From the IMG/VR virus record IMGVR_UViG_3300030102_007788, positions 33,139-97,138 of that record: DNA of 64,000 nucleotides; one strand, written 5' to 3'. The first letter of the stretch is position 1. Every line of letters begins with the position of its first letter. Positions 19,422 to 37,977 of the stretch are shown in pieces. Source of the DNA: a virus. The position numbers were made by a program, and so were the translations under genes. Under the pieces are notes generated by a model. It saw nothing but the letters and a program-made list of their open reading frames with translations, did no database searches and was not told where the DNA came from.

Positions 19422-19895
19422 TTATCTACCGGAACTGCCAAATCCGCCTTCGCCTCTTTGGCTATTTTCTAATGTTTTCATTTCAATCCATTCTGGCGTG
19501 TGGCAACTTTCAATTATGAGTTGAGCCACTCTATCGCCGGGTTTTACGTCAAACTTGTTAGCTGAACCGAACATAGACTCGTAAACACTCGGCTTTAAAT
19601 TATAGCCTTCAAAGTTTAGGTTTATCAATAAAATTTTTATTTCACCCCGATAACCTGAATCCACGACCCCAGCCATGACATCTATTCCTCTTTTTACAGC
19701 CAGTCCACTTCTAGGGGCAATCCGTCCATAAAAACCTTCAGGAATTTCTACGCTAATTCCTGTCGAAATTAATGTTCTTTGGCCCGGCTCCAAAGTGGCG
19801 TACTCTGTTGAAAAAAGGTCAAACCCGGCATCAGAAGTGTTAGCTCGGTAGGGAGCTAAGGCTTCTTTGTTTATTTTTTTATAATTTATTTTCAT
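19422..19895 (-). CDS. dut: dUTP diphosphatase
   Basis: A 157-residue trimeric-type dUTPase, which keeps uracil out of DNA and supplies dUMP to ThyX. All five motifs are visible: SDAGFDLFS, APRSGLA, GVVDSGYRGEI, PGDRVAQLII, and the Gly-rich tail RGEGGFGSSGR. There is an insertion of about 15 residues before motif 4 (NFEGYNLKPSVYESMFGS). The gene overlaps the dCMP deaminase gene by four bases (ATGA). Confidence 0.94.
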   Translation of the reverse strand: MKINYKKINKEALAPYRANTSDAGFDLFSTEYATLEPGQRTLISTGISVEIPEGFYGRIAPRSGLAVKRGIDVMAGVVDSGYRGEIKILLINLNFEGYNLKPSVYESMFGSANKFDVKPGDRVAQLIIESCHTPEWIEMKTLENSQRGEGGFGSSGR

Positions 19896-20296
19896 AGTTT
19901 AACGCAGTCAATTCCGTAAAAATCAAAAATGTTTAACGCCGCGACATCTCTATCATAAACTTCTTCATAGACGACTTTTTTAACACCGTATGCTGCTATC
20001 ATAGTAGCACATGAGGAGCATGGAAGTAGCGTGCATGCAAGGAGATTTACTTCCCCTCTTTTGACTAAACTCAAGCAGTTAACCTCAGCATGAATCATAT
20101 AGGGTCTGCGGTGGTTTCGGTTCCGAAAAAATTGATACGAGACATCTTTTCCCGGAGCTAAACCGTTGTAGCCAACTGCAACTATCATATTTTTGCTGTT
20201 AAGAGCACAGGCTCCGACTTTTTTGTAGATGTCCTCACTCCTTTGCGCAGCGGTCCTAGCAATATCTAACGCGTATTTTTCCCAAGAAACTCTCAT
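19892..20296 (-). CDS. dCMP deaminase
   Basis: A 134-residue zinc enzyme converting dCMP to dUMP, the substrate of ThyX (53297). The zinc site is His69 with catalytic Glu71 (HAEVNCL) and Cys93/Cys96 (PCSSC). KKVGACALNSKNMIVAVGYN upstream also fits the family. It starts the minus-strand operon with dut and has an AAGGAAG ribosome site. Confidence 0.92.
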   Translation of the reverse strand: MRVSWEKYALDIARTAAQRSEDIYKKVGACALNSKNMIVAVGYNGLAPGKDVSYQFFRNRNHRRPYMIHAEVNCLSLVKRGEVNLLACTLLPCSSCATMIAAYGVKKVVYEEVYDRDVAALNIFDFYGIDCVKL

Positions 20297-20313
20297 AATC
20301 TTCCTTAAAAATC

Positions 20314-20344
20314 ACAACCTAAATCAAACAGGTTGCCAAATCAA
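20314..20344 (-). promoter_or_regulatory. Degenerate CCCTG-type promoter and hairpin before the dCMP deaminase gene
   Basis: On the minus strand TTGATT (20344-20339), ACCTG beginning 11 bases from the -35 start, then TAGGTT after a 17-base spacer. CAACCT at 20315-20320 pairs with AGGTTG at 20330-20335, so the box lies in a hairpin. Weaker than the other members. Confidence 0.4.
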
Positions 20345-20357
20345 GAAAAAAAAGTTG

Positions 20358-20386
20358 TTGACTTCCCTGCCTGAGTCAATTACAGC
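20358..20386 (+). promoter_or_regulatory. CCCTG-type promoter for the structured RNA
   Basis: TTGACT at 20358-20363 and CCCTG at 20365-20369, seven bases from the -35 start as in the promoter at 22327. The -10 is weak: TTACAG or TACAGC depending on a 16 or 17 base spacer. Transcription would begin near 20392, right before the first hairpin of the RNA. Confidence 0.55.
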
Positions 20387-20389
20387 TTG

Positions 20390-20690
20390 CTCACGTAGCA
20401 CTTCCGTCTTGCTACGGTAAAAGGTAGGCGGATCCGCAATCTATGTGTCCGGCTCTGCTGTGGAGACTTGCAACCGGAGGAACTAACTGGCGTGAAAAGG
20501 GCGCTTCGTTAGGCGAGTAGTATAGGCGATGTCATATGGGTGGAAACTACCACGCACCCAAAAAAGGCTAGCCGGGGAGAATTCTCAGGGAAAAGTAAAA
20601 AGATTGCCGATGTTCTGGAATAGCCGCCAAAACGGGGAAAGTCTCCGTTTCACTTCGACTTTCTAGGGAAAAGTTTTATATATATTTATT
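20390..20690 (+). ncRNA. Large structured RNA, not recognised
   Basis: A gene-free stretch of over 400 bases with stops in all frames. Visible helices: GTAGCA/TGCTAC (20395-20415); GGCGG/CCGCC (20427-20431 with 20624-20628); GCAATCT/AGATTGC (20436-20442 with 20601-20607), which closes a multi-branch loop; TCCGG/CCGGA (20447-20478); CTAAC/GTTAG (20483-20512) with an inner GCGT/GCGC; GGGTG/CACCC (20538-20559); GAGAATTCTC (20577-20586); and a nine-pair hairpin (20630-20650). Loops are rich in unpaired A. A T-rich tail follows. It is not a tRNA or tmRNA, and I could not match it to RNase P or a group I intron core. The strand is inferred from the promoter and tail. Confidence 0.65.
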
Positions 20691-20693
20691 TAT

Positions 20694-20707
20694 TTAACTA
20701 TAGTTAA
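20694..20707. promoter_or_regulatory. Palindrome TTAACTATAGTTAA, operator-like
   Basis: A perfect 14-base palindrome 13 bases before the ATG at 20720. TATAGT inside it could be a -10, so a protein bound here would block transcription of the kinase/sigma operon. The GTTAA half-site also recurs at 59389-59430. Confidence 0.45.
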
Positions 20708-20719
20708 CTTTAATTAAAC

Positions 20720-21316
20720 ATGGATTTTAATTACAAAAATATAGGTATATCCGGGGTCGCAGGATCCGGCAAAAATACTCTAGCTGAAATACTGGGGCTG
20801 TTTTTTTCTAGATTACAGTTGCCGATTAAAGAGCTTTCAATTGCAAGGAACTTAAAGCAGGAGATAAGCCCCGTCTGTAAGAGTCTTTATTCTATTGATT
20901 CTCTTAATTGCTCCAGAGAGGAGAAAAATTTAATCAGACCTATGCTGGTTGCTCACGGAGAAATAAAAAGAAAAATGACAGAGGGTACTCATTGGACCTC
21001 ATTACTGGAGAAAGATTTAGAAAAAGATAAAATAAATATTATTACCGACATAAGATACGCTGAATATCCCGAGGATGAATATTTTTGGCTTACAAAAAAA
21101 GCAAACGGCGTATTGATTCACGTTTCAAGGTACGACGAAATCGATGGAGAAAGACATTTCATAAAACCTGCAAATCCGTCTGAGGAGAAAAACGACCATC
21201 GAGTAAAAAAATTATCAGATTTTTCCTTAAATTGGAAAACTGAAAAGAATTATGGAGATATGATCTTTAACTGCCGAAAATTACTCAAGTGGCTTAAAAA
21301 AATATATGTCGAATGA
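20720..21316 (+). CDS. P-loop kinase, probably deoxynucleoside monophosphate kinase-like
   Basis: A 198-residue protein with a Walker A loop at residues 11-19 (GVAGSGKNTLAE) and IITDIRYAEYPEDEYFWL near residue 93, which resembles the dNMP kinase (T4 gp1-like) layout with an Asp-Arg pair. That enzyme phosphorylates dNMPs, including modified ones. The assignment is by P-loop, length and genome context with dCMP deaminase, dut, RNR and ThyX. It leads a plus-strand operon with the sigma factor. Confidence 0.65.
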   Translation: MDFNYKNIGISGVAGSGKNTLAEILGLFFSRLQLPIKELSIARNLKQEISPVCKSLYSIDSLNCSREEKNLIRPMLVAHGEIKRKMTEGTHWTSLLEKDLEKDKINIITDIRYAEYPEDEYFWLTKKANGVLIHVSRYDEIDGERHFIKPANPSEEKNDHRVKKLSDFSLNWKTEKNYGDMIFNCRKLLKWLKKIYVE

Positions 21317-21746
21317 TACCGTAGAGGATAGTTTATGCCAACCTATCGTAGCTTATTGCGGTAGAAATGCTAGTATAAATTTTTCCCCTGAAAATGCCAA
21401 TAAAGCTTTAGGTTTTTCTTTCGACAATCACTACGCTTTATTCAATTATGAGATTCGAATAGTAAGATTCAACGGTAAAGATGTAAAAGCAACAGAAAAT
21501 AATGAGAATTATTATCTAGTAGAAATTTTCATATGCTCAGATGACTTGAATGATGATTCTTTTTGCGATTCTTATATTTTCAGAGAAGAAAATTTAGAAG
21601 ATTTAATTGAGTATGTTATAATATTGCCACGTCTCTTTAAAAGACACCATCGTTATGTTCTTGCCATGGAGAGAGATGACGTGTGTTTTTTTAAAGATTT
21701 CGGGTATAAGGTTGACTTATGGAAACAGGCTGCTGGGATAATATAA
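21306..21746 (+). CDS. Hypothetical protein
   Basis: A 146-residue acidic protein that overlaps the kinase gene by 11 bases and the sigma gene by 28. Segments such as YLVEIFICSDDLNDDSFC look like mixed alpha/beta. No family recognised. Because it is locked between the kinase and the sigma factor it may be co-regulated with them. Confidence 0.5.
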   Translation: MSNDTVEDSLCQPIVAYCGRNASINFSPENANKALGFSFDNHYALFNYEIRIVRFNGKDVKATENNENYYLVEIFICSDDLNDDSFCDSYIFREENLEDLIEYVIILPRLFKRHHRYVLAMERDDVCFFKDFGYKVDLWKQAAGII

Positions 21747-22318
21747 CGGATAATTGTCTAGTAAATAATGTAAAAAATAGCAATTGTGAGGAAAGCTTAC
21801 TAGAACTGTCAAACAGGCATACTGGACTTTGCTTCAAAATAATGAAAAAATACGCAAAGACTTTTTGCGCCAATGATATCTGCATCCAAGAAAAACACGC
21901 TGAAAAAAATTTAATTATTTGGAATTCAGCAAAGACTTTTAACACTGAAAAAAATGTAAAATTTTCTACTTGGCTAGCCAATCAAGTTAAATACAGCTGC
22001 CTTAATGAAATTAACAAAAAGTCTAAAGACAGACTAGTAACGCTTGAAGATGAGATGCTGGACGTGTTAAAAGATCCACCAGAAGAAGAGGATTCTGGTA
22101 TCTTTGAGTATACTAATAATATTTTAAAGCAACTTCGAGATAACAGGATTCAAAACATCTTCTCAATGAGGTATTCGAAAGAGGTTAAAAAGCCTTCATG
22201 GTCTCTAATTGCAAAAAGACTTGATATCAGCACTCAAACAGCTATAAACCTACATAATAGAGGCTTGGAAATTTTAAGAAAAAAAATCAAAAGTAATAAA
22301 TTTTTAGACAATGTTTAA
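21719..22318 (+). CDS. Phage RNA polymerase sigma factor, sigma-70 family
   Basis: A 199-residue protein. Region 2 is recognisable in LCFKIMKKYAKT followed by AKTFNTEKNVKFSTWLANQV (roughly residues 76-95), the part that contacts core polymerase and the -10. A region 4-like helix-turn-helix follows near the C-terminus: SWSLIAKRLDISTQTAINLH then RGLEILRKKI. It is shorter than a housekeeping sigma and resembles T4 gp55-like late sigma factors. It may read the AGTGTAATAT boxes. It lies just before the CCCTG promoter at 22327. Confidence 0.75.
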   Translation: METGCWDNITDNCLVNNVKNSNCEESLLELSNRHTGLCFKIMKKYAKTFCANDICIQEKHAEKNLIIWNSAKTFNTEKNVKFSTWLANQVKYSCLNEINKKSKDRLVTLEDEMLDVLKDPPEEEDSGIFEYTNNILKQLRDNRIQNIFSMRYSKEVKKPSWSLIAKRLDISTQTAINLHNRGLEILRKKIKSNKFLDNV

Positions 22319-22365: not shown

Positions 22366-22665
22366 ATGTCTACCGAACAAAAGAACAACGACTGGAAAGA
22401 GCGTGAATTAGGCGCTCTTTGGGCAAAGAAAAGCAACAACGGTTCTCAGTACATGACTGGCCATATTGAAGTTAAAGGGGCATCTGGAAAGGTGCAGCTC
22501 GTAGTCTTCAAAAATAAAGGCAAGTACAATGACGACGGAACTGTTAAAAGCGAGAACGCTCCCGATCTTCGCATCTATCTTAGTGAACCACGCGAGGAGC
22601 GCTCTAATAAAGCCGAGACCACGGCTGCGACTACAAACCAATCCAATAACGACCCATTGTTTTAA
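22366..22665 (+). CDS. DUF736-like protein with SSB-like acidic tip
   Basis: A 99-residue protein from the ATG at 22366; an earlier in-frame start would lie within the promoter. The core ELGALWAKKSNNGSQYMTGH, then VQLVVFKNKGKY and ENAPDLRIYL, matches the DUF736 layout. The tail NNDPLF ends in an acidic-hydrophobic tip like those of single-stranded DNA-binding proteins. A role in DNA replication is inferred. The next gene starts in its stop codon (TAATG). Confidence 0.6.
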   Translation: MSTEQKNNDWKERELGALWAKKSNNGSQYMTGHIEVKGASGKVQLVVFKNKGKYNDDGTVKSENAPDLRIYLSEPREERSNKAETTAATTNQSNNDPLF

Positions 22666-23771
22666 TGTCGGACATAGCCTTACATCTTCCAATTAACGGT
22701 GTAAGCTTTGGTCAGGTTAGCACTGCCCTTCTGCGTGAATATTACCAGAAGGGCGTGCAACCTTTTATTTTTACAATAGGCCAAGTTGACCTCAACTCAC
22801 AAGAAGCGGACAAGGATTTCACCAAGTGGATAGAGTCCTGCATTAAAAAGTCCTTCGAAGAGTACAAAAGGTCTACGCCTATCTTAAAGCTGTGGCATTT
22901 AAACCATGAAAGTTTATCGTCTTACAGCAAAAGTCAGACTCTTTTTACTTTTTATGAATTAGATCACCCTACGACATATGAAGTAAATATTGCTAAAAAT
23001 CAGTCCAATATAATCGTAAGTAGCACTCACGCTAAACAAATTTTTGAGGCAGTCGGTTTAACTAACTGCCACTACGTTCCTTTGGGTTTTGATAAAAACA
23101 ATTTCAAAGTAAAAGATCAGCAATACCTTGAGGGTAAAATTGTCTTTAATCTTACTGGTAAGTTAGAAAAAAGAAAGCACCACAAAGAGGTAATTCAAGC
23201 TTGGGTTAAAAAGTACGGCAATAATAAAGACTACGTTTTGCAGTGCGCTATTACAAACCCCTTCATGAAAGAAGAGGATTTCAAGAGTAGGCTTTCCCAT
23301 ATACTTGACGGCAAAAGTTATTTTAATCTTAACTTTTTAGGGAGTATGCAGAAAAATGTTCTGTACAATGATTTTCTAAACTCCTCTAACATTGTTATAG
23401 GCATGTCGGGGGGAGAGGGCTGGGGCTTACCAGAGTTTCAATCTACTGCCCTTGGAAAACATGCGGTTATACTTGATGCGCCGGGTTACCAAGAGTGGGC
23501 GAATGAAAAAAATGCTGTCATGATAAAGCCTGATGGAAAAGAAGAAGCTGCCGACGGTATATTTTTTAATAAAGGTGGAGCTTTTAATCAGGGGAGTATA
23601 TTTACCTTTAATGAAGATGAATTCATCGCTGGCTGCGAGCAGGCTGTAGAAAGATACAAGTCTTCTCCCGTAAACACCGAGGGGTTAAAACTGCAAGATG
23701 AGTTCACTTACGAAAAGACAGTCAAAAGTATCACGGACATCATGCAATCACAAGGAGAAATAAATGCCTGA
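22665..23771 (+). CDS. GT-B glycosyltransferase, family 4-like
   Basis: A 368-residue protein. The donor-binding C-terminal half shows GMSGGEGWGLPEFQSTALGK near residue 246, with the conserved Glu of the E-x7-E pair, and NLTGKLEKRKHHKEVIQAW before it. The N-terminal half is a Rossmann-like acceptor domain. First of a run of sugar-transfer genes. Confidence 0.82.
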   Translation: MSDIALHLPINGVSFGQVSTALLREYYQKGVQPFIFTIGQVDLNSQEADKDFTKWIESCIKKSFEEYKRSTPILKLWHLNHESLSSYSKSQTLFTFYELDHPTTYEVNIAKNQSNIIVSSTHAKQIFEAVGLTNCHYVPLGFDKNNFKVKDQQYLEGKIVFNLTGKLEKRKHHKEVIQAWVKKYGNNKDYVLQCAITNPFMKEEDFKSRLSHILDGKSYFNLNFLGSMQKNVLYNDFLNSSNIVIGMSGGEGWGLPEFQSTALGKHAVILDAPGYQEWANEKNAVMIKPDGKEEAADGIFFNKGGAFNQGSIFTFNEDEFIAGCEQAVERYKSSPVNTEGLKLQDEFTYEKTVKSITDIMQSQGEINA

Positions 23772-24129
23772 GTATATTTACGAACACCCTGAAACCGGCG
23801 AAAAAATAACTGTTTGGCAGACTATTCACGAGGCTCATGAATATGAAGTCGATGGAGTTGCTTATAACAGGGTTTATACGGTACCTAACGCTTCAATAGA
23901 TACAAAGATTGACCCTTTTTCTCAAAAAGAATTTAGGGAGAAAGCTAAAGCTTCAACTATTGGAGACCTGTGGGATCAGTCAGCGGAAGCTTCCGAGAAA
24001 AGAACTGAGAAGCTTGGGCACGATCCTGTTAAGCAAAAACATTTTGAGGACTATTCCAAGAAAAATAAAGGCGCCAAACATCCACTAGACAGAGGTAAAG
24101 TGGATAATTCCAACTTTACTCTTGAATGA
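23764..24129 (+). CDS. Hypothetical protein, FmdB-like N-terminus without cysteines
   Basis: A 121-residue hydrophilic protein starting MPEYIYEHPETGEKITVWQT. The first 50 residues have the shape of the FmdB/zinc-ribbon domain found in many phages, but the metal-binding cysteines are absent, so it should not bind zinc. The rest is charged and helical. Confidence 0.5.
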   Translation: MPEYIYEHPETGEKITVWQTIHEAHEYEVDGVAYNRVYTVPNASIDTKIDPFSQKEFREKAKASTIGDLWDQSAEASEKRTEKLGHDPVKQKHFEDYSKKNKGAKHPLDRGKVDNSNFTLE

Positions 24130-25007
24130 TAAAATATACCGTAATAGACGACTCCGCTATACAGCTAGGAGGCACGTCACTTACTTTAGAGGCCATAACA
24201 GAGCCTTTTAAAGATGAGTGTGAGTTTATTACGACTTCAGAGTTAACAAAAACTCATTTACAATTCAAGCACCCTAAAGTTTGGATTATAGGTAACACCT
24301 TAGGACTCTCTAGAGAATCTTATGAGTCATTATTAGAGGTTATAAAAAATAGAACTTCTATTAAAATAGATTTTGATTATGGATTTTGCAGGTTCAGAGG
24401 GCCAACCCCGCACCGCGTTTTAGGTAAAAAAGAGTGCGATTGTCTGGTAAACTCAGAAACAGCAACACTAAAAAATTTATACTACCAAATAAAAGAAAAC
24501 AGCTCCGCTGTCTTCTACATGTCAGAGGCGCAACGTCAGATTCATCAACAGGCAATTGGCATAAAAGATGAGCAGTCTATAGTTTTATCATCCTGTTTTA
24601 CTAGCGATTCTTTCAAAAAAATGAAAGAGTACAGAAGTAAGCTTAAATCAGAAAAGTATGCAGTGATTGATGGCCATCAAGGCTGGCACTCTGAAGCTAA
24701 AGGTGTTACAAAGTCAATTAATTATGCCGTGACTAAAAATTTAGCTTACGATGTGTTTAAAACAGACACGCATGACGAAATGCTTGATAAACTAAGTGAG
24801 TATAAAGGATTAATATTTTTACCCACTATCGAAGATACCTGCCCTAGGATAACCATCGAAGCGAAACTTATGGGCTTGGAAGTTATAACAAATGAAAACT
24901 CCCAGCACACCTCTGAAAGCTGGTGGAACTTCAGTTTAGAGAAGATGGAAGAATACTTAAAAGAAAGGCCAGAATTATTACATCAAAAACTCATAAGTTT
25001 GAGTTAA
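24126..25007 (+). CDS. Glycosyltransferase-like protein
   Basis: A 293-residue protein. The C-terminal part LIFLPTIEDTCPRITIEAKL then GLEVITNENSQH resembles the donor domain of GT-B enzymes, where E-x7-E residues bind the sugar nucleotide. The N-terminus starts with a Rossmann-like strand and a short loop (VIDDSAIQLGGTSL). Family number not assigned. Confidence 0.6.
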   Translation: MIKYTVIDDSAIQLGGTSLTLEAITEPFKDECEFITTSELTKTHLQFKHPKVWIIGNTLGLSRESYESLLEVIKNRTSIKIDFDYGFCRFRGPTPHRVLGKKECDCLVNSETATLKNLYYQIKENSSAVFYMSEAQRQIHQQAIGIKDEQSIVLSSCFTSDSFKKMKEYRSKLKSEKYAVIDGHQGWHSEAKGVTKSINYAVTKNLAYDVFKTDTHDEMLDKLSEYKGLIFLPTIEDTCPRITIEAKLMGLEVITNENSQHTSESWWNFSLEKMEEYLKERPELLHQKLISLS

Positions 25008-25744
25008 TTGCTAGGATTCATGGTGACTGTTTGCATAACATTAAAAGGTTAGTATCTAGTGTTTTAGTCCAAAGTCATTATAATTTTAGGCTTCATTTAG
25101 CTATCGACAAAACCTCTAACGAGGTTATTTCTTTATGCAGGCAGATAGAATCTGACCCTCAGTGCGTTATGCCTTTTCCCGTCGATTACCCATCCGGTAC
25201 AATAAAAGTCTGGGAAAACAATGGTGACCGACTTTACGCTGTAGCCAACACGGCTCGCGTTTTAGATTCTCTTAACGATATAGATTCAATTATAGGAGTC
25301 ATAGATGCTGACGACCAACTCTGTGAAAGGAGCGCTTTACAGTGGGTCAACAGACTTTACAATAACGCAAATTTAGGCGCTGTTTGGACATCAAACATCT
25401 GGGAGCCGTATGGTATTAATTTATGTTCAAACAATTTAGATGACTCTCAAGATGTATATAAACATCCTTGGGTAAGTAGTCACTTCAGAACCTTCAAGCT
25501 CGGATATTATAAAAGAGTTAATCCAGATAATTTTAAAGATGAAAATGGCGACTGGATGAAAAGGTGCGAAGACCAAACTTTTATGCTTCCCATTATCCAC
25601 GTAATTCATAAAAATAACGAGCACACACATTTTTTAGAAAATCCATGTTATCTGTATAGAGGATATCAAGAGATAGGTGGTGAAGCGCATCAATACCAAA
25701 TGCAATTAGAAAAATTTATAAGAAATAGAGGTTTTGTAGAATGA
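24923..25744 (+). CDS. Glycosyltransferase family 2-like (GT-A)
   Basis: Up to 273 residues from a GTG at 24923, overlapping the previous gene by 85 bases; the true start is probably a little later, near FELIARIHGDCLH. Landmarks: ARIHGDCLHNIKRLVSSVLVQ (family 2 N-terminus) and GVIDADDQLCERSALQW, with the DxD metal site. The C-terminal part carries KRCEDQTFMLPI, the usual acceptor-side acidic pair. Confidence 0.72.
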   Translation: MELQFREDGRILKRKARIITSKTHKFELIARIHGDCLHNIKRLVSSVLVQSHYNFRLHLAIDKTSNEVISLCRQIESDPQCVMPFPVDYPSGTIKVWENNGDRLYAVANTARVLDSLNDIDSIIGVIDADDQLCERSALQWVNRLYNNANLGAVWTSNIWEPYGINLCSNNLDDSQDVYKHPWVSSHFRTFKLGYYKRVNPDNFKDENGDWMKRCEDQTFMLPIIHVIHKNNEHTHFLENPCYLYRGYQEIGGEAHQYQMQLEKFIRNRGFVE

Positions 25745-26691
25745 GTTTTAGTTTTTATATAAATAACTGTAGTCCGACAGGCGGTCCCGGTATTTTTGGA
25801 GGCCGTCTTAAAAAGCAGTTTGAAAAAAATGGTCATAAATTTGTAGACCCATATGTGTCCGGGGAAGTTCCTGAAAAAAATATCTCTATTATACAAGGGG
25901 AGAGAATACCGGGATGTCCTTTTAACATGCTTAGGCTAGATGGTCTTTATTTTGATTCGGATAATCCCAATAATGATCAAATGAATTCGGGTATTTTTAA
26001 GAGCTTTGACGAAGCAGACTATATAGTTTACCAGTCCGAGTTCTCAAAAGAAATGTATCACGCTTTTTACAAGGATAAACCTTTTACTATTATTGCTAAT
26101 GGTATAGACCAGCAAGATTTTATTTCAAACGCGAAGCCTATAAAGTATGAAAATCCAGTTTTTTCCAAATACGAAAAAATATGCGTTGCTTCAGCTTCTT
26201 GGCGCAGGCATAAAAGGTTAGAAGAAACTATAGAGGCATTTAAAGACCCTAAACTTAAAAACGTATTACTGATTGCGTTAGGAGGTTTTGAATATATAAA
26301 AGACAAATCTTCAATACCTGAGAATGTTATACTAACACCTTTACTGAAACCTAACGATACTGCCTCTATTTATACAATGGCTGATGCTATGATTCATTTA
26401 GCTTGGTTAGATTGGTGTCCAAATACTGTTGTAGAGGCCTTGTCTTGCGGAGCTCCAGTTCTATGCTCTCATAACGGTGGTACTAAGGAGCTAGTTAAAG
26501 ATGACGGAGTAGTTATTCAGCTAGAAGAAGACTATGATATAGGCACTAAAGTTCCTCTTTACAACCCACCAAAAGTAGATACAAAAATAATTGTTGATGG
26601 TGTTTTAGAGGTTATAGAAAAATCAACGCTTTTTGATAGGCCTGATCTAGATATTAGTTACGTAGCTAATCAATACGAGGAACACTTATGA
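25741..26691 (+). CDS. Glycosyltransferase family 4-like (GT-B)
   Basis: A 316-residue protein. It has a glycine loop (SPTGGPGIFGGRL) near the start, VASASWRRHKRLEETIEAF in the middle, and TVVEALSCGAPVLCSHNGGT near residue 225 with the conserved Glu. Its start overlaps the previous stop by four bases (ATGA). Confidence 0.82.
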   Translation: MSFSFYINNCSPTGGPGIFGGRLKKQFEKNGHKFVDPYVSGEVPEKNISIIQGERIPGCPFNMLRLDGLYFDSDNPNNDQMNSGIFKSFDEADYIVYQSEFSKEMYHAFYKDKPFTIIANGIDQQDFISNAKPIKYENPVFSKYEKICVASASWRRHKRLEETIEAFKDPKLKNVLLIALGGFEYIKDKSSIPENVILTPLLKPNDTASIYTMADAMIHLAWLDWCPNTVVEALSCGAPVLCSHNGGTKELVKDDGVVIQLEEDYDIGTKVPLYNPPKVDTKIIVDGVLEVIEKSTLFDRPDLDISYVANQYEEHL

Positions 26692-27584
26692 AAAATTATA
26701 ACGCTTGTATTTCTTATATATCCTCACGAGAGAACTGTATAGGTAACTCTCTAAAGTCACTACATGATAACTTTAATTATAAATACAACTACCCTGTCTA
26801 CGTTCATTATTTTGACGATATATATTCTCATCCCGATTTACTAAAGTCAGTACATGAGCAAATAGGTGATTACATCCAATTTATCAAAATAGATTATAAC
26901 ACCCCAAAACATGTAAAAAAGGAAGACTTATTTTTTAATAGAGATTTGTGGTATGTGAATAATCATTTTTCCGTACATAGGATTGGTTACTTGCATATGT
27001 GTCATTTTGTTAGCAACATGTTTGAGTATCCCAACACTAAGTTTCATGAGTATGATTACGTAATGGTTCATGACGATGAAGCTGGATACAATTCAGAATT
27101 ACCTTACAACCCATTTGAAATTCTCTCTGAGCGGGAAGAATTTTTAGGTAGTTTTAAATCAGGCCAAAGGTTAAGAGACGGCAAACCTCACCAAGGTCAC
27201 TTAGACACTAGAATTGGTCTTTGTGAACTAACAGTTAATTTCTTAAAAAAGAATAACATAACCCCTAAAAATAAAAAGTTATTAAATTTGTTAGATAGCG
27301 ATACTGCTGAAAGTGACTTTCACTTTTTAGATTGGTGCGACACTTACGTCCTTAAAACATCAATGTTTAAAACTGATATATGGAAACTCTGGATAAAGGA
27401 GGTGAACGAAAGTGGAGGTATCTACAAATACCGCTGGGGAGACAATGAAATAATTAGCCTATTTGCGCATTTTGTTCAAGAGGAAATTTTTGATTTTAAA
27501 GCTGTTGAGGAGGGATACCACGACTTAGGTAAATACAGAAGACTACAAGACACCGCGCCAAGTGTGCAAGACCTAAATAAATGA
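26688..27584 (+). CDS. Glycosyltransferase family 15-like (Kre2/Mnt1 type)
   Basis: A 298-residue protein. YDYVMVHDDEAGYNSELPYN near residue 123 corresponds to the acidic donor-binding stretch of the Kre2/Mnt1 alpha-1,2-mannosyltransferases. KYRWGDNEIISLF near residue 246 matches the signature RWGDAPV-H-S-I of that family. GT15 enzymes are known chiefly from fungi. The protein lacks a membrane anchor. In this context it may add a mannose-type sugar. Overlaps both neighbours by four bases. Confidence 0.65.
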   Translation: MKNYNACISYISSRENCIGNSLKSLHDNFNYKYNYPVYVHYFDDIYSHPDLLKSVHEQIGDYIQFIKIDYNTPKHVKKEDLFFNRDLWYVNNHFSVHRIGYLHMCHFVSNMFEYPNTKFHEYDYVMVHDDEAGYNSELPYNPFEILSEREEFLGSFKSGQRLRDGKPHQGHLDTRIGLCELTVNFLKKNNITPKNKKLLNLLDSDTAESDFHFLDWCDTYVLKTSMFKTDIWKLWIKEVNESGGIYKYRWGDNEIISLFAHFVQEEIFDFKAVEEGYHDLGKYRRLQDTAPSVQDLNK

Positions 27585-28516
27585 CCTTTTACATCATAGA
27601 GCCTCATTTTCACTATCAACAGTTTTCTTATTATTCTACATTAGCAAAAGAAATAGTAAAAAATGAAGATGCCCAAGTAGCCCTAAATCCAAATTCTATC
27701 CAAGACATACCAGAATCTCTTTCTAAAGAGAATTGTATTTTTTTAGGCTTGGGTTTTTTCGATAGCAAATGCTATGAAAAACATTTTTCTAACTTCCTGA
27801 ATACAAAGGCTTTAAAAATAGCATACTTGCATAAAGTAAAAAACTCCTATCAAGAAAAAATAAACTTCTGCAAAAGCCATAAGGTAGATTTGATTCTAAC
27901 TTCCACCCCCTTAGAAAAAGAAATACAAGAAGATTCAGGTATACGAACTTTCACTTTACCATATGGAGCAGATCCCAATACTTTCAATATTGCCCCTGAT
28001 GTTAAAAAACAATATGACATAAGCTTCAGCGGCGCTATGCATGAAAACAAGCAGGGTGTACCAGAAGAATTATTAAACATAAGATTTAAAGCGCGTGATC
28101 TTATCAAAGAAAGAAAAGACTTGTCTATTTTTTGGAATGGCTCTGACGACCCCAGTCAATCCTATAGAATGTCCCAGCCTGAATATGTCAAAAAACTAAA
28201 TCAAAGCAAGATCTGGTATGCTGCGACTGGGCCAGCTTGGGACATGAACCCTCGTCATTCTGAAATTTTATTTTGCGGAGCTGTTTTGCTTACAAACGAA
28301 ACCCCTAGCGGTTATTATGACCAATGGGAGGACGGTTTTAATTGTGTTCGATACAAGACGGATCTGTCAAATCTTAATGAAAAAATAAATGAAGCGTTAG
28401 AAAAACAAGAATTTATAAGCAAAAACGCATATAATTTTGCGTTAGATAATTTAACTCCTAATAAAATTTACGAAAGACTTAAGTGGATAATAAAGCAAAA
28501 TTTAAAGATAATTTAA
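27581..28516 (+). CDS. CgeB-like glycosyltransferase (GT-B)
   Basis: A 311-residue protein whose C-terminal third reads MNPRHSEILFCGAVLLTNET then PSGYYDQWEDGFNCVRYKT, the layout of the Glyco_trans_1_2/CgeB group. GADPNTFNIAPDVKKQYDIS precedes it. It overlaps the radical SAM gene by 34 bases. Confidence 0.72.
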   Translation: MTFYIIEPHFHYQQFSYYSTLAKEIVKNEDAQVALNPNSIQDIPESLSKENCIFLGLGFFDSKCYEKHFSNFLNTKALKIAYLHKVKNSYQEKINFCKSHKVDLILTSTPLEKEIQEDSGIRTFTLPYGADPNTFNIAPDVKKQYDISFSGAMHENKQGVPEELLNIRFKARDLIKERKDLSIFWNGSDDPSQSYRMSQPEYVKKLNQSKIWYAATGPAWDMNPRHSEILFCGAVLLTNETPSGYYDQWEDGFNCVRYKTDLSNLNEKINEALEKQEFISKNAYNFALDNLTPNKIYERLKWIIKQNLKII

Positions 28517-29337
28517 AGCTTATAGAGATAGAAATTTTTTCTTTCTGTAATAGGAAGTGCTGGTTTTGCCCCAACTCTTATGTGGATCGTATTTCAGAAA
28601 CAACTTTCATGAATGAGGAAGTATATTTAGGCCTCATCAAACAACTTCAGGAAATAGATTATTCAGGCGAGTTAACATACAGCAGATACAACGAGCCCCT
28701 TTCTTACCGAGAAGTTTTTACTAAAAGAGTAAAACAAGCTCGTAAACTTTTACCAAATGCAACCTTAAGAACAAATACTAACGGAGATTATATAACTAGA
28801 GATTACATAGAAGAGCTTTGTGACATAGGGCTAGATCAACTTTGGATTCAACAGTATTTAGCTAATCAAGAAAGGTACAATCATGCTAAAGTAAAATCAA
28901 AAATGATATCTAAAATTAAAAAATTAGACTTACCTTACGAAACGCTTGTTGATATAGAAGGCTGTAAAATAGAGTTTGACCTCTCTCACAGGGATACCAC
29001 AATTCACCTTAGGGCAAGAAACTTTGCGATTGACGGATCTAGCAGAGGAGGTACCGTACCTATTGCAGAGCAGTACACAAGAACACAACGATGCCTTCAG
29101 CCGTTTCATAATATGTACATTGATTACAACGGGCACGTTATGGTGTGTTGCGCCCTAAGGTCTGACGTGGAGCCTTACGACGAAGGTAGAATGGGGCACA
29201 TAAACCAAGGTAAATTATGGGACATACATTCTAGCGACACCTATAAACCTTGGAGGGAGCACCATAAAGAAGACGGCCCCAAAGAGGGGGTTTGCAAAAC
29301 TTGCAGAGACAATGTCAAGCCATCTTATCTAGAATGA
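28483..29337 (+). CDS. Radical SAM enzyme with SPASM-like C-terminus
   Basis: A 284-residue enzyme. CNRKCWFC puts Cys22, Cys26 and Cys29 in the CxxxCxxC motif that holds the SAM-cleaving Fe4S4 cluster. The C-terminal part has more cysteines (C204, C222, C223, C271, C274; CKTC) in the SPASM pattern, which holds an extra cluster. Such enzymes make epimers, dehydrogenated sugars or peptide modifications. The substrate is unknown, but its place within the sugar island points to a sugar or glycan precursor. Starts at GTG. Confidence 0.82.
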   Translation: MDNKAKFKDNLKLIEIEIFSFCNRKCWFCPNSYVDRISETTFMNEEVYLGLIKQLQEIDYSGELTYSRYNEPLSYREVFTKRVKQARKLLPNATLRTNTNGDYITRDYIEELCDIGLDQLWIQQYLANQERYNHAKVKSKMISKIKKLDLPYETLVDIEGCKIEFDLSHRDTTIHLRARNFAIDGSSRGGTVPIAEQYTRTQRCLQPFHNMYIDYNGHVMVCCALRSDVEPYDEGRMGHINQGKLWDIHSSDTYKPWREHHKEDGPKEGVCKTCRDNVKPSYLE

Positions 29338-30110
29338 AAACAGCGGTACTTATAACAGGTCAACTTAGAGACTATAAGATAAATTGCCTTAACCATGTCA
29401 AGCATCTTATAGAACCCAACAACGCAGATGTTTTTGTTTATGCATGCACTCAAAATACTATTCACAACTGCGGTAAGAGTCTAGACCAGAAATATTATAG
29501 AACTGCTAACTATGGCAAAGATGAGATAATTGATAATGTAAGTGAAATATATGGCAATTACTTAAAACTTGTAGAAGTAGATGAAAATGAAAAGTTAACG
29601 GAGGATGACTTTGGCACACTTGGATATTTCAGAACAAGGATGCAAAACCAAATAGATAACATAGGCAAAGGTTTTGCTATGGCTAAGTCCCATGACGATT
29701 ATGACGTTATAATTAGATGCAGACCTGACAACTCTATGTACTTGCAGCCTGTCAAAGTTAAGGATTTCCCTTTTAACGACACTACAATATATAGCACGGT
29801 TTTTATGCCATCTAGGCATAGGGATTTATGTTTTTTTGCGATGGCTAACCCACACGTATTTGAAAAATACTGCTCTTACGAATACCTTAAAGGGGAAGAC
29901 CCAAATAGAAAGGATAGTAACTTTTTATGCACGGAGCACGCTTGGGAGGGGTATTTAATGCAAAACGGCATAAATGTTCAATATATACCAGATGTATGCA
30001 GGCCATTCACTCAATTTGACAAAAGCACAAAAGTAGCAGATTTCCCATACAGAAACGAAAAAGAAAAGTTGGTGGATCATCACGGAAATTGGGTAGATCA
30101 AGTAATATAA
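29334..30110 (+). CDS. Glycosyltransferase-like protein
   Basis: From the ATG at 29334 (overlapping the previous stop, ATGA) the protein has 258 residues. The N-terminus MKTAVLITGQLRDYK is typical of a small group of predicted phage and viral glycosyltransferases. DDYDVIIRCRPDNSMYLQPV near residue 120 holds a D-N-D-like donor site. No certain family. Confidence 0.55.
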   Translation: MKTAVLITGQLRDYKINCLNHVKHLIEPNNADVFVYACTQNTIHNCGKSLDQKYYRTANYGKDEIIDNVSEIYGNYLKLVEVDENEKLTEDDFGTLGYFRTRMQNQIDNIGKGFAMAKSHDDYDVIIRCRPDNSMYLQPVKVKDFPFNDTTIYSTVFMPSRHRDLCFFAMANPHVFEKYCSYEYLKGEDPNRKDSNFLCTEHAWEGYLMQNGINVQYIPDVCRPFTQFDKSTKVADFPYRNEKEKLVDHHGNWVDQVI

Positions 30111-30991
30111 TGCAGCCTGTTATAAGAGTAGACTTTACCGTAGGGTTTGGTAATAACTTATTCCAATTTGTTTACGCTAAATTATTAGCTGAAAAAATCG
30201 GAGCCAAGATTTATATTCTCTCTCCTATTACAGACTACTTTGGAATAGATTGCCTAGACTTGCTAGTAGCAGACGACACCTATGAAAATGTTTCTGTATA
30301 TTTTTCTAGTAAAATTTTTGAAAACGGGCTTCCCTTAAAACAGGTGACTACCGAGCAGCAGGCTAAGACCGAGCTAGAGAACCCTTCAAAGTGCAACTAT
30401 TTACTTAATGGTTATTTCGAAGATTATACGTTATACGAAACCCATCTTGAAAAAATTAGATCTTGGTTTATTAGACCTGATGTTATAGATAAAGAAAATG
30501 CAGTCTTGCATCTAAGGTTAGGAGATAGGTTATTCATCCCCACAACTTACCAACAGGAAAGTCTTCTTACTTTCGATAAGTATAAACGCGGCTTAGATCA
30601 AATGGATTTTGACAAACTTTACATTGTTTCTGACCTACCTGAGTGGAGGCATTTTAAATATGATGAGCTTTTACAATACAGATACCACGTTAAGGTTGAG
30701 GAAAATACTCTCGAAATGTCTGCAAAAGCTGCTAATTACGTAAACGAATTAGTTGAAAAATTTTCAAATTCATATAAAATAAGCTTTTGTAACGGTAATC
30801 TTAGTTCTGATTTTTATAAGATTATGAGCTACGATAAAATTATTTTTGGCTATAGCACTTTCGCTTGGTGGGCAGCCGCTTTAAGCGGCGCTTCTAAAGT
30901 AGGTGTTTTTGAACCATGGAGGCCATGGAAAAAAGAAAATAATAAAAATTTAGGTAAAACAAGCTACCCCGGTTGGTTTGGGTGGAAATAA
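30110..30991 (+). CDS. Alpha-1,2-fucosyltransferase-like (GT11)
   Basis: From the ATG at 30110 (TAATG overlap) the protein has 293 residues. The GT11 motifs are present: GFGNNLFQFVYAKLLAEK at the start, LHLRLGDRL in the middle (H-x-R-x-G-D) and FGYSTFAWWAAALSG near the end. GT11 uses GDP-L-fucose. Two genes down lie the enzymes that make GDP-L-fucose, which supports this call. Confidence 0.8.
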   Translation: MQPVIRVDFTVGFGNNLFQFVYAKLLAEKIGAKIYILSPITDYFGIDCLDLLVADDTYENVSVYFSSKIFENGLPLKQVTTEQQAKTELENPSKCNYLLNGYFEDYTLYETHLEKIRSWFIRPDVIDKENAVLHLRLGDRLFIPTTYQQESLLTFDKYKRGLDQMDFDKLYIVSDLPEWRHFKYDELLQYRYHVKVEENTLEMSAKAANYVNELVEKFSNSYKISFCNGNLSSDFYKIMSYDKIIFGYSTFAWWAAALSGASKVGVFEPWRPWKKENNKNLGKTSYPGWFGWK

Positions 30992-30995
30992 AATT

Positions 30996-31934
30996 ATGAA
31001 ACATATAGTAACAGGCGGAGCGGGTTTTATAGGAACTCACTTAGTTAAAAAACTTGTAGAGCAAGGTGATGAGGTAGTTGTAATTGATAATCACTCCTCC
31101 TCTGGCGGTGAACTTTTAAATGAGAACAGTTTAAAAGAATCTGTGACAACAATTTCTGGCGATATATCGTATATAAAAACCCAGACAGGCTTGCATCATA
31201 AGTTAAAAGACGCTTTTGAAGGTGTCGATACTGTTTTTCATTTAGCTGCGAGAGCTAGAGTGCAACCTTCAATTGAAAATCCAGTATTTTTTAATGCGAC
31301 TAACGTTGAAGGAACATTAAACATGCTGGAGTATGCGCGAGAAGCCAAGGTTAGAAGGTTTGTTTTTACTTCCTCTTCTTCTCTTTATGGCGATACAGAA
31401 GTTTTTCCAACTCCCGAAACGCTGGAGCCTAACCCCTTAAGCCCCTACGGTCTACAAAAACTAATAGGAGAACAGTATTGCCAGTTATATTCTCGCATCC
31501 ACGATATGGATACAGTGTGCTTAAGATACTTTAATGTTTACGGAGAAGGAGCTCCAACAAAAGGTGCTTATTGTCTCGTTATGGGTATATTTATCAGGCA
31601 AGCACTTGAAGGAAAAAATTTAACTATATATGGAAACGGGCAGCAACGCAGGGATTTTACTTATGTAGGCGATGTTGTAAACGCCAATATCTTAGCCTCT
31701 AAGTGCGATAAAAAGTTCGCGGGAGAAGCTTTCAATATAGGGAACGGAGAAAACAAAAGCGTTCAAGAGATTGCAGACGTTTTCAAGCTGCCCTGCGATT
31801 ATTTACCGGCAAGATTAGAGCCCCAACAGACCTTAGCGGATAATTCTAAAGCTAAGGAAGTGCTAGGGTGGGAACCTACCGGAGATGTTGTAACGTGGCT
31901 GGAAAGACATTTAACAGAAATACTTAAAAAATGA
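30996..31934 (+). CDS. SDR NAD-dependent epimerase/dehydratase acting on a sugar nucleotide
   Basis: From the ATG at 30996 the protein has 312 residues. GGAGFIGTHLVKKL binds NAD. The catalytic set is SSSSLYG and PYGLQKLIGEQ (Y-x-x-x-K). RYFNVYGEGAPTKGAY follows. It is closest in shape to UDP-GlcNAc/UDP-Glc 4-epimerases and UDP-sugar dehydratases; which one cannot be told. Confidence 0.82.
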   Translation: MKHIVTGGAGFIGTHLVKKLVEQGDEVVVIDNHSSSGGELLNENSLKESVTTISGDISYIKTQTGLHHKLKDAFEGVDTVFHLAARARVQPSIENPVFFNATNVEGTLNMLEYAREAKVRRFVFTSSSSLYGDTEVFPTPETLEPNPLSPYGLQKLIGEQYCQLYSRIHDMDTVCLRYFNVYGEGAPTKGAYCLVMGIFIRQALEGKNLTIYGNGQQRRDFTYVGDVVNANILASKCDKKFAGEAFNIGNGENKSVQEIADVFKLPCDYLPARLEPQQTLADNSKAKEVLGWEPTGDVVTWLERHLTEILKK

Positions 31935-32863
31935 AAATATTCATAGCAGGGCATAATGGTCTTGTTGGTTCAGCCATCAAGAGAAGGTTAGCGGGAGAAG
32001 ACGTTGAAGTAATTTATGCTAATAGGCATAGCTTAGACCTACTCGACCAAAGGGCAGTAGGGTACTTCTTCGAAGCGAATAAGCCAGACGTTGTCATAGA
32101 TGCCGCAGCCAAAGTTGGAGGTATTCACGCTAACAATATCTATCCAGCAGATTTCATTTATCAAAATTTACAGATTCAAAATAATATAATTCACAGCTGC
32201 TTTGAAAACAAAGTTAAGAAGTTAATTTTTTTAGGTAGTATATGTATTTACCCAAAGTTTGCTGAGCAACCAATCAAGGAAGAATACTTACTGACTTCAC
32301 CCCTTGAGCCTACTAACGAACCCTATGCCGTAGCAAAGATAGCTGGAATTAAGATGTGTCAAAGTTATTACCGCCAGCATGATTGTGATTTCTTTTCTTT
32401 GATGCCAACGAATCAATACGGGCCTAATGATAATTTTCACCCCGAGAATTCTCATGTTTTACCAGCCCTTTTACGACGTTTTCATGAAGCTAAACGAGAC
32501 GGTGTGCCTTCTGTTAAGGTGTGGGGCACGGGTAAAGCTAAAAGAGAGTTTCAATATGTTGACGACTTGGCTGATGCTTGCGCTTTTGCTATTGAAAATA
32601 TTACAGCAGCCGATGTCTACGAAAACGGAGCCACACATTTAAACGTGGGAACAGGGGAAGAGTGGTCAATAGAAGGCTTGGCTCAAAAGATAGCTCAAGT
32701 TGTCGGTTACGAGGGCGATATATTGTTTGACGATAGAAAGCCAGACGGAGTACTAAGGCGTGTTGGAGACAACTCTCGTATAAACAAATTAGGCTGGAGT
32801 CACAAATACTCTTTAGAAGAAGGTCTCGATTTAACCTATAATTGGTACAAGGATAATGTCTAA
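31931..32863 (+). CDS. fcl: GDP-L-fucose synthase
   Basis: A 310-residue SDR enzyme, the second step of GDP-L-fucose synthesis: epimerisation and reduction of GDP-4-keto-6-deoxymannose. GHNGLVGSAIKRRL, AAKVGGIHANN, LGSICIYPKFA, EPYAVAKIAGIKM and REFQYVDDLADA are all hallmarks. Adjacent gmd gives the substrate. Confidence 0.93.
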   Translation: MKIFIAGHNGLVGSAIKRRLAGEDVEVIYANRHSLDLLDQRAVGYFFEANKPDVVIDAAAKVGGIHANNIYPADFIYQNLQIQNNIIHSCFENKVKKLIFLGSICIYPKFAEQPIKEEYLLTSPLEPTNEPYAVAKIAGIKMCQSYYRQHDCDFFSLMPTNQYGPNDNFHPENSHVLPALLRRFHEAKRDGVPSVKVWGTGKAKREFQYVDDLADACAFAIENITAADVYENGATHLNVGTGEEWSIEGLAQKIAQVVGYEGDILFDDRKPDGVLRRVGDNSRINKLGWSHKYSLEEGLDLTYNWYKDNV

Positions 32864-33896
32864 GAGAGTATTAGTAACAGGAATCACTGGGCAAGACGGT
32901 TCCAACATGGTTGATTACTTGCTAAAAAATACCGATCACTTAATTTTTGGTATGGCAAGAAGGTCGTCTAACATAAATTTAGAAAACTGTACTGATTTTA
33001 TTGATGACGAAAGGTTTCAGTTAGTTTACGGAGACCTAACGGACAGCTTTTCAATCGCTAAATTAGTACAAGAGATTCAACCAGACTATTTTATAAATTT
33101 CGCCGCCAACTCTTTTGTTGGATGTAGCTGGGATATGCCTGAGCACGTAATGGACACTAATACTGTTGGCACCATTAGGTGCTTAGAGGCTATTAGGAGA
33201 TATCAACCTAAATGTAGATATTACAGTGCCGGAAGTTCAGAAGAGATGGGAGACGTAGATTACAGCCCACAAGATAAAGCTCACCCACCTAAACCCAGAA
33301 GCCCATATGGAGTATCCAAAGTAGCGGCTAGATATTTAGTTAAAGTTTATAGAGAGTCCTATGGAATCTTCGCCATTCATGGCATCTTGTATAATCACGA
33401 GGGTATCCGAAGAGGCGAAGAGTTCGTTACCCGTAAAATTACCAAGGGAGTTGCTCGTATATTATGTGCAATGGACCAAGGGAAGGAATTTGACCCGATC
33501 TCGCTAGGCAATATAAATTCCAAGCGAGATTGGTCTGATTCTGAAGATTTCATCCATGGAGTTTGGCTTATGCTTAATCAAGATGAGCCAAAAGAATATA
33601 TTCTATCCAGCAACGAAACTCATACAATAAAAGAGTTTGTTGAAGTAGCTTTTGAAGCTGCTGGTATTGAAGGCACATGGAGCGGAGAAGGGATAAACGA
33701 AAAATATACATGCTCCCTTGACAAGACTCCATTAGTAGTAATATCTGAGAAATTTTATCGCCCCTGTGAGGTAGATATTCTTTATGGCGATTCTACCCCA
33801 ATAAGAGAAGAGCTAGGATGGAAACCTGAATGGGACTTTAATGGTTTAGTAACTAGAATGGTAAACAATGACATTCGGTTGAAAAAAAATGGATGA
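32856..33896 (+). CDS. gmd: GDP-mannose 4,6-dehydratase
   Basis: A 346-residue SDR enzyme, the first step from GDP-mannose to GDP-L-fucose. GITGQDGSNMVDYLL, RSSNINLENC, AGSSEEMGDV, PRSPYGVSKVAARYLV and YNHEGIRRGEEFVTRKITKG follow the family closely. Overlaps fcl by eight bases. Confidence 0.93.
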   Translation: MSKRVLVTGITGQDGSNMVDYLLKNTDHLIFGMARRSSNINLENCTDFIDDERFQLVYGDLTDSFSIAKLVQEIQPDYFINFAANSFVGCSWDMPEHVMDTNTVGTIRCLEAIRRYQPKCRYYSAGSSEEMGDVDYSPQDKAHPPKPRSPYGVSKVAARYLVKVYRESYGIFAIHGILYNHEGIRRGEEFVTRKITKGVARILCAMDQGKEFDPISLGNINSKRDWSDSEDFIHGVWLMLNQDEPKEYILSSNETHTIKEFVEVAFEAAGIEGTWSGEGINEKYTCSLDKTPLVVISEKFYRPCEVDILYGDSTPIREELGWKPEWDFNGLVTRMVNNDIRLKKNG

Positions 33897-36446: not shown

Positions 36447-36719
36447 ATGAGTAAAAGCCAAACGACAAGAATTCCGGACTCGCTCCTAGATCAAATTAGT
36501 GAGTGGTCTTGCGGAGGATTCATGTTATTTAATTTCGATGAGGATGGTAATCCCCAAGTATACTCAAAAGTAGAGAGTGAAAAGAACGCTATGTCTCTAC
36601 AATACTTAATTAACCATTGGTCTGAAGCCATGGAATCGATGAATTCAGATACTTTCATTAAAAATTTAAATAGTGCTTTTGACGATCCAGAAGAAGAAGG
36701 ATACGAAGACGATGAGTGA
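36447..36719 (+). CDS. Hypothetical acidic protein
   Basis: A 90-residue protein from the ATG at 36447 (92 from 36441). The C-terminus is strongly acidic (DDPEEEGYEDDE). It overlaps the tubulin-like gene by eight bases. No recognised family. Confidence 0.5.
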   Translation: MSKSQTTRIPDSLLDQISEWSCGGFMLFNFDEDGNPQVYSKVESEKNAMSLQYLINHWSEAMESMNSDTFIKNLNSAFDDPEEEGYEDDE

Positions 36720-37977
36720 TACCGATATAAACCAATACTACCCACAGGACGAAGTTCCTCCTGTTACTTTAACTGCTGGCGAGGCACCAGAAGCTGCTCC
36801 CGCAACACCAGAAGAACCCAAGCCAAATACTGAGGAGGCTCCAGCTACGGAACCTGTAGAAGACTTGGGCATTGATTTACCAGATATTCCACTACCCGAC
36901 GACGAACCGATAGAAGACGCGATCAAAGATACTTTTGACGATGCTGCTTTTAACTTTGCGGTTGTGGGTGTCGGGCAAGGAGGTTCTAGGCTGGCTGAGT
37001 CTTTTTGGAACTTGGGTTATCGTCGTGTTGGTGTTATTAACACCGCTCAACAGGATCTTTCTTTGATCAAAATTCCTGAATCAAATAAATTGCTAATTGG
37101 TGATGGAGGAGCTGGTAAAAATCCTGACGCCGCTGATGAGGTATTTAGAACTAGATATGAAGACATATTAGATTTTCTTAAAAAGACTTTCGGCGCTGGA
37201 TACGAAAGGGTTCTGGTGTGTGCTGGCGCAGGTGGAGGCACCGGAGCGGGAGGGGTCGCTAGGGTTTTGGAAATTTGCCATGATCTAAATCAGTCTCTCG
37301 GAAAAGAGACTAAGGATACTGACGCAAAGGTTGGATGCATTCTTGCGTTACCAACTAAAGGCGAAGGTATCAAAGTCCAAGACAACGCTAAGAAAACGAC
37401 ACTTAAAGTCTTAGACTTGCAAAAAGCTGGCGTTATCTCCCCGTTGGTTATACTGGACAATGAAAAAATTAAGCAGCTTTATCCCAAGCTGAGCGTAAAT
37501 CAATTTTGGACTACTGCAAATAGCAGTATCTGTTCTGTATTTCATTTGTTCAATAAGATTTCCGCTAAAGAATCTGCTTATACTACTTTTGACAAAGCTG
37601 ATTTGGATACTATTTTCTCATCGGGAATTATTATGTTTGGAGCAACTCCTGTTAAGGATACATCCGAAACTGGCATTTCTTACGCCGTGAGAGATAATTT
37701 GCGTAAGAATATTTTAGCAGGCGTTGACGCATCAACCGGAAACGTTGCTGCTTGTATCATTATCGGAGACAAAGATTCTCTTGACAATATCCCTCAGTCT
37801 AGCTTAGAACATGGGTTTGAACAATTGAGTCGGATGATGGGTTCAGGCTCAACAGTTCACCGCGGTATTTATGCTGGCGCCAAGAAAGGCGTAGCCGTTT
37901 ATACTGCTATCGGAGGTCTGCAGGCACCTGAAAACCTGTTCGATTATTTCTTCAAAGTGGACCGAGTATATAAATAG
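36712..37977 (+). CDS. FtsZ/tubulin-like GTPase
   Basis: A 421-residue protein. Residues 1-78 are an acidic, Pro/Ala/Glu-rich tail. The GTPase part starts at VVGVGQGGSRLAESFWNLGY (84-103). AGAGGGTGAGG (171-181) is the tubulin signature GGGTG(S/T)G that grips the GTP phosphates. TFDKADLDTIFSSGIIMFG (292-310) matches the T7 loop and strand of FtsZ, with Asp294 and Asp297 in place for GTP hydrolysis. So it looks active, and closer to FtsZ than to PhuZ. Phage tubulins position DNA or the replication zone in the host cell. The N-terminal tail is unusual. Confidence 0.85.
   Translation: MSDTDINQYYPQDEVPPVTLTAGEAPEAAPATPEEPKPNTEEAPATEPVEDLGIDLPDIPLPDDEPIEDAIKDTFDDAAFNFAVVGVGQGGSRLAESFWNLGYRRVGVINTAQQDLSLIKIPESNKLLIGDGGAGKNPDAADEVFRTRYEDILDFLKKTFGAGYERVLVCAGAGGGTGAGGVARVLEICHDLNQSLGKETKDTDAKVGCILALPTKGEGIKVQDNAKKTTLKVLDLQKAGVISPLVILDNEKIKQLYPKLSVNQFWTTANSSICSVFHLFNKISAKESAYTTFDKADLDTIFSSGIIMFGATPVKDTSETGISYAVRDNLRKNILAGVDASTGNVAACIIIGDKDSLDNIPQSSLEHGFEQLSRMMGSGSTVHRGIYAGAKKGVAVYTAIGGLQAPENLFDYFFKVDRVYK

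Follow-up and report, generated by a model that had tools for sequence, protein, structure and literature searches.

Among the RNAs that phages and prophages are known to encode, two come closest in kind to the element described here: GOLLD, a stand-alone, large and ornate pseudoknotted RNA whose function is not known, and ROOL, a complex RNA with several pseudoknots and no known protein partner (PMC12286853). Large structured RNAs of unknown function, with OLE as a further example, still are an open problem, to which we add a compact member with solid covariation. It was observed in a stretch of 64,000 nucleotides (the window, to which coordinates refer unless another record is named) comprising positions 33,139 to 97,138 of the 170,406-base IMG/VR virus record IMGVR_UViG_3300030102_007788, the genome of an uncultured large phage; as terminase and tail-fibre genes are present elsewhere in the 170-kb record, this is a tailed phage. 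Sequence comparison (seven homologues, covariation and a strand test) confirms that positions 20391-20680 on the plus strand encode a conserved structured RNA of about 290 nt, here called type A.

The RNA gene sits within a nucleotide-metabolism block between two divergent genes. To its left, a dCMP deaminase gene (19892-20296, minus strand; phrog_174, E=1e-33) is accompanied on the same strand by genes for dUTPase and ribonucleotide reductase; to its right, a deoxynucleoside monophosphate (dNMP) kinase gene (20720-21316, plus strand; phrog_139, E=4e-10) is followed by a gene without assignment and a sigma-like gene. The product of the latter (21719-22318, plus strand) is sigma-70-like, with matches to phrog_351, phrog_36 and, weakly, Pfam region 2, and is a candidate recogniser of the phage's own promoters. 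Directly before the RNA stands a promoter-like sequence (20358-20386, plus strand) consisting of a -35 element TTGACT (20358-20363), a 17-nt spacer and a -10 element TACAGC (20381-20386); TTGAC is invariant among the type A homologues, where a TANAAN-like hexamer follows at equal spacing. An earlier reading of this DNA, made by a model from the letters and their open reading frames (the sequence-only reading), had assigned the promoter to a CCCTG family of the phage's own. Such a family is real in this genome, the pattern TTGAC-N4..8-CCCTG matching 7 times in the window against 0.28 expected, but the CCCTG at this site (20365-20369, inside the spacer) follows TTGAC after 2 nt, the usual gap being about 6. 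The copies in the window lie at 70, 17975 (minus strand), 32652 (minus strand), 34528, 45639, 49349 and 59548, and more occur elsewhere in the record. Farther along the plus strand, a long one-direction series of ORFs, each encoding some 270-370 aa (approximately 22665-33896), contains matches to phage glycosyltransferases in its first and third ORFs, and a Tubulin/FtsZ-family GTPase (36673-37977; PF00091, E=3e-11) is possibly a phage tubulin of the PhuZ-like kind.

The element is non-coding, as had been read: no ORF of at least 60 aa lies within 20421-20719, and the sole ORF touching the element (20229-20420, plus strand) is largely antisense to the deaminase gene. The homologues that the sequence-only reading had recommended looking for exist and covary. 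Searching viral contigs with the deaminase, conserved stretches of the element and an alignment of kinases as queries, we found type A in seven distinct contigs, the window included; querying with the dNMP kinase of the window by itself retrieved almost nothing, and it was the kinase alignment that succeeded. The first three type A sequences compared are 77-84% identical, and conservation falls outside the RNA. On alignment A8 we scored one hand-written fold of 72 pairs, including an H-type pseudoknot at the 5' end: 98.8% of the cells are paired versus 93.4% in shuffles (none of 500 as good), 19 pairs are changed on both sides versus 9.9 (again none of 500), and the covariation score is 0.261 versus 0.146, these shuffle statistics ignoring kinship and referring to a fold drawn on the very sequences scored. 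Chance is very unlikely, because controls in which the partners were slid by 1-3 columns gave 29-45% paired cells and 0-3 double-changed pairs, and because double changes occur in PK1-S2, P3, P4 and P7. G.U cells outnumber A.C cells by 34 to 3, so that the plus strand is the folding RNA. Folding of the single sequence gave z = +0.64 for the plus strand against dinucleotide shuffles, 72 of 100 of which fold equally well, and an uninformative z = -0.31 for the minus strand; the evidence for an RNA is therefore comparative.

The 5' end forms an H-type pseudoknot, PK1 (20395-20432), with stems S1 (20395-20400 with 20410-20415) and S2 (20403-20409 with 20426-20432), in which 3 of 6 and 5 of 7 pairs, respectively, are changed on both sides and 100% of the cells are paired. 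Here the sequence-only reading had drawn a 5' hairpin, GUAGCA/UGCUAC, which holds up and covaries, with double changes in 3 of its 6 pairs; missed was the pseudoknot itself, made by pairing of the hairpin loop CCGUCU with the downstream AGGCGG. The outer helix GGCGG/CCGCC of that reading has to be abandoned, since GGCGG closes the 5' pseudoknot: 65.7% of the cells are paired, without any double change and no better than in shuffles. The core is a multiloop (20436-20607) closed by P1 (20436-20442 with 20601-20607), the helix GCAATCT/AGATTGC, which lies exactly where it had been placed, is kept in all seven homologues and shows one C-G to U-A pair. The inner hairpins also proved real, namely P2 (20448-20452 with 20474-20478), P3 (20483-20487 with 20508-20512), P5 (20525-20527 with 20571-20573), P4 (20538-20542 with 20555-20559) and P6 (20575-20578 with 20583-20586), among which P3 and P4 covary clearly. 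A possible pseudoknot GUAG/CUAC joins 20517-20520 to 20547-20550 in the P4 loop; its invariance in all seven type A copies counts neither for nor against it.

Directly 5' of the 3' strand of P1 lies the first copy of a motif, AGGGAAAAG (20587-20595), invariant in type A. The hairpin P7 (20612-20633, pairing 20612-20618 with 20627-20633) has double changes in 3 of its 7 pairs and is followed by PK2 (20634-20663), a putative 3' pseudoknot or set of alternative hairpins (20634-20635 with 20645-20646; GAAAGUC, 20637-20643, with GACUUUC, 20657-20663), whose nearly invariant sequence across type A leaves the pairing as an inferred one. The second copy of AGGGAAAAG (20665-20673) lies at the 3' end of the RNA before a U/A-rich tail; the forward strand of the 170 kb holds just four copies, two of them within the type A RNA. 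The 3' hairpin ACGGGGA/UCUCCGU of the sequence-only reading is kept, with seven pairs instead of nine, and overlaps the invariant alternative GAAAGUC/GACUUUC. Altogether, the 3' part offers three mutually exclusive, nearly invariant pairings: ACGGGGA/UCUCCGU, GAAAGUC:GACUUUC, and GACUUUC with the GAAAAGU before the U/A-rich tail. No classical terminator is present at the type A 3' end.

None of the 4227 families of Rfam 15 reaches its curated (gathering) threshold on the element; at relaxed thresholds the best E is 1.7, all matches being far below gathering and chance-like, and the only gathering-level match in the window is a tRNA-Arg at 53024, 32 kb away. Together with the covarying homologues, these negatives support the initial view of a large structured RNA that is not a tRNA, tmRNA, RNase P, 6S RNA or group I intron. 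The RNA thus is outside every Rfam 15 family, structured phage RNAs of unknown function being a known kind, and we found no earlier description of it in literature that lay mostly outside the subscription journals.

Less closely related phages carry other RNAs in the non-coding gap that precedes this kinase gene, here types B (~430 nt) and C (~400 nt), neither of which has a match in Rfam. Type-specific HMMs retrieve their own members with E values as low as about 1e-115 for A, 1e-142 for B and 1e-97 for C; neither these nor the covariance models yield a convincing cross-match among the three. Types B and C have their own covariation and their own pseudoknots. In type B, 97.8% of the cells are paired, 14 of 31 pairs are changed on both sides and a pseudoknot CCCG:CGGG shows a C-G to U-A change; in type C, whose fold was derived from a seed alignment smaller than the full set, the six-pair helix H1 is changed on both sides at every pair. 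Type B begins with a boxA-like sequence, GUUCUUUGUUA (identified by eye), which was not seen in types A or C. A TTGAC-type start signal precedes members of all three types. Among 50,697 phage records none is similar to A, B or C at the DNA level, and a scan of the genome collection for the type B core pattern gave 20 stretches, about the chance number, none of which the type B HMM matched convincingly (best E 0.02). The type B match in record L185 (E ~2e-4) is nearly confined to one stretch, includes no core hairpin and is probably due to chance. A divergent type B-like RNA (E ~5e-5) with its own TTGACA..TATACT-like promoter occurs in L119 (24-170, minus strand), and L019 encodes a phage tmRNA (10023-10442, plus strand; Rfam tmRNA, 140 bits).

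Covariance models for types C (R1), B (R2) and A (R3) were run over whole records, which may be fragments. The window genome and three other type A records, scanned with all three models, contain type A only; the type B records searched lack C, type C records lack A and B at a significant level, and no examined record holds two types. Several records without an RNA beside the kinase carry a type C RNA elsewhere, and in four (G007, G012, G013 and G018) none of R1, R2 and R3 had a credible match. Most of the clade's large phages that we examined have the RNA, one copy per genome, and for A, B and C alike one type occurs per genome at the same locus or in its neighbourhood, as far as records that may be fragments can tell. 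A, B and C probably are one functional family with three diverged types; it is from their place, size and mutual exclusivity, together with a short motif, that we infer common descent. That three forms alternate at a single locus suggests a function under strong selection and a fast-changing molecule, as a host-virus conflict might produce.

A motif similar to AGGGAAAAG is also found in types B and C. Type C shows the order CUAARGRAAAG-like motif, genome-specific strand, GC-rich terminator-like hairpin, after which the motif returns with a similar strand. The first strand is more complementary to the upstream (pre-pseudoknot) segment of its own genome than to those of other genomes (mean 14.7 vs 11.5, p<=5e-5), the two copies agree inside each genome (p<=5e-5), and copy 2, too, is a better fit to the upstream segment than expected by chance (p ~0.009); all three values are based on hand-chosen anchors and ignore kinship. 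The type B strand GGAUAAGCAGUC, or a genome-specific variant of it, likewise appears twice; in type A the motif occurs twice and the repeated strand is absent. Such duplicated strands suggest that pairing partners may be swapped or that two modules serve equally for binding, and the modules of hairpin, RGGRAAAAG and helix strand near the 3' end are candidate sites of protein binding or assembly.

Among 64 distinct RNA copies, 42 have the kinase gene next downstream on the same strand, 17 have a different gene in that orientation and 5 a convergent one; given the last two groups, the family is not the leader of one operon. In type A the kinase always comes next, starting no more than about 20 nt beyond the aligned region; the association with one gene class is thus constant for this type, though not across the family, and here a leader role is conceivable. 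Types B and C mostly adjoin a conserved protein of about 140 aa encoded upstream, usually no more than about 50 nt from the start of the RNA model. Examples are found in L041 (1485-1994) and L064 (1535-2026); the protein begins with MT (MTV start region) and belongs to no Pfam family. Its AlphaFold2 model, a confident one (mean pLDDT 88), has Foldseek matches that are winged-helix proteins, none of them below E 0.001, and a winged helix is accordingly the predicted fold. A search of limited power did not detect the gene in the window genome, and it is therefore unlikely to encode an obligate partner of type A. The RNA thus has a frequent protein neighbour in two of the three types, and its natural variants are numerous enough to inform mutational and structural studies.

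How should such an RNA be understood? It is conserved and covarying, its strand is defined, promoter-like sequence precedes it and, family-wide, it is independent of the downstream gene. On balance we favour, as probable, an autonomous structured non-coding RNA gene of about 290 nt with its own promoter, type A of a probable family and most likely acting in trans. Its transcription would run rightward, starting at a sigma-70-like promoter of its own where the flanking genes diverge; the RNA would fold into the 5' pseudoknot, the core multiloop, the 3' hairpin and a switch-like 3' pseudoknot, ending in the second AGGGAAAAG motif, and would most likely act as an architectural RNA or as part of an RNA-protein particle. 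A bolder reading, which we put forward tentatively and would not yet call probable, is that of an undescribed multi-pseudoknotted RNA class in nearly every genome of the large-phage clade, existing in three mutually exclusive forms that diverged beyond recognition at one locus and building a dedicated phage ribonucleoprotein (with the winged-helix protein in B and C) through duplicated hairpin-RGGRAAAAG-strand modules able to exchange pairing partners. For type A, the main rival to a trans-acting RNA is a cis-acting leader that would control the dNMP kinase and the nucleotide operon as a riboswitch or attenuator, with the alternative 3' pairings as expression platform. The kinase directly 3' of every type A copy (and of 42 of the 64 copies of all types), the switch-like look of the mutually exclusive, nearly invariant 3' pairings and the suitability of such a role to a nucleotide-metabolism block all speak for it. 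However, the next gene is not the kinase in 17 copies and is convergent in 5, the RNA lies away from the kinase in other records, promoter-like sequence separates RNA and kinase in at least two type B genomes (L019 and L024), and L069 seems to have a tRNA-like gene between the two. The sequence-only reading had offered a regulatory RNA, a packaged RNA or a ribonucleoprotein scaffold as possible roles; of these, adjacency across the family argues against a simple cis-regulatory leader, and we regard this explanation as rather unlikely. In the alignment, the tRNA-like gene of L069 appears directly 3' of the type B RNA, at about 2316-2490 on the plus strand.

The remaining explanations appear considerably weaker. 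A site at a divergent promoter, upstream of an operon in which the sigma-like protein (21719-22318) is encoded as well, and the boxA-like GUUCUUUGUUA at the start of type B might point to an RNA acting on transcription, either as a 6S-type binder of RNA polymerase or in antitermination, with a host or phage-modified polymerase as its target. 6S RNA is a long rod with a central bubble resembling an open complex; the fold supported here is a multiloop with pseudoknots and no long bubbled hairpin, Rfam yields no 6S match and types A and C show no boxA-like sequence, which together make this role improbable. Another proposal is a packaging RNA that, like the pRNA of phi29, would multimerise on the portal to drive DNA packaging: its occurrence in most examined clade members, one type in each, its strong structure and the terminase of this genome would fit, but the gene is not near that of the terminase, no pRNA match was obtained from Rfam, no ring-forming loop pairing is established, and we hold it to be quite improbable. 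Equally improbable in our view is a decoy, guide or anti-defence RNA, or the RNA component of a two-part system with the winged-helix gene; the frequent upstream partner gene of types B and C and the genome-specific duplicated strands would suit this proposal; against it stand the failure to find the partner gene in the window genome, a predicted winged-helix fold that is no known nuclease or toxin, and the lack of identified CRISPR-like repeats. Finally, the divergent point, the neighbouring AT-rich stretch and a local minimum of GC skew could be taken as signs of a DNA-level element, an origin or cruciform, instead of an RNA; the strand-specific pairing (34 G.U vs 3 A.C cells) and the covarying pseudoknot stems make this extremely improbable. 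An origin proposed from GC skew was rejected, the turn being only local and explained by gene direction.

In comparison with known systems, the RNA shares with the riboswitches and attenuators of nucleotide genes a multiloop with pseudoknots 5' of a biosynthetic gene and alternative 3' pairings, but the family's downstream gene varies or faces the opposite way and no known aptamer was matched. Like phi29-type pRNA and bacterial 6S RNA it belongs to the small structured phage or cellular RNAs with promoters of their own, from which it differs in architecture and gene context and, as judged by Rfam, in sequence. ROOL likewise is a phage-encoded complex RNA with pseudoknots; it forms octameric cages and often lies near tRNA islands. 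Many GOLLD RNAs exceed 800 nt and are near tRNA islands, in contrast to types A (~290 nt) and B (~430 nt), which lie beside nucleotide-metabolism genes; the RNA lies near no tRNA island in the window, and within the family L069 is, by eye, the one possible exception. The Rfam search detected no sequence or secondary structure homologous to GOLLD or ROOL. What the RNA has in common with GOLLD is a phage-encoded, stand-alone nature (for type A presumably so) and a covariation-supported fold of many helices with pseudoknots, and the likeness to both GOLLD and ROOL is one in kind, between RNAs that are unrelated by Rfam.
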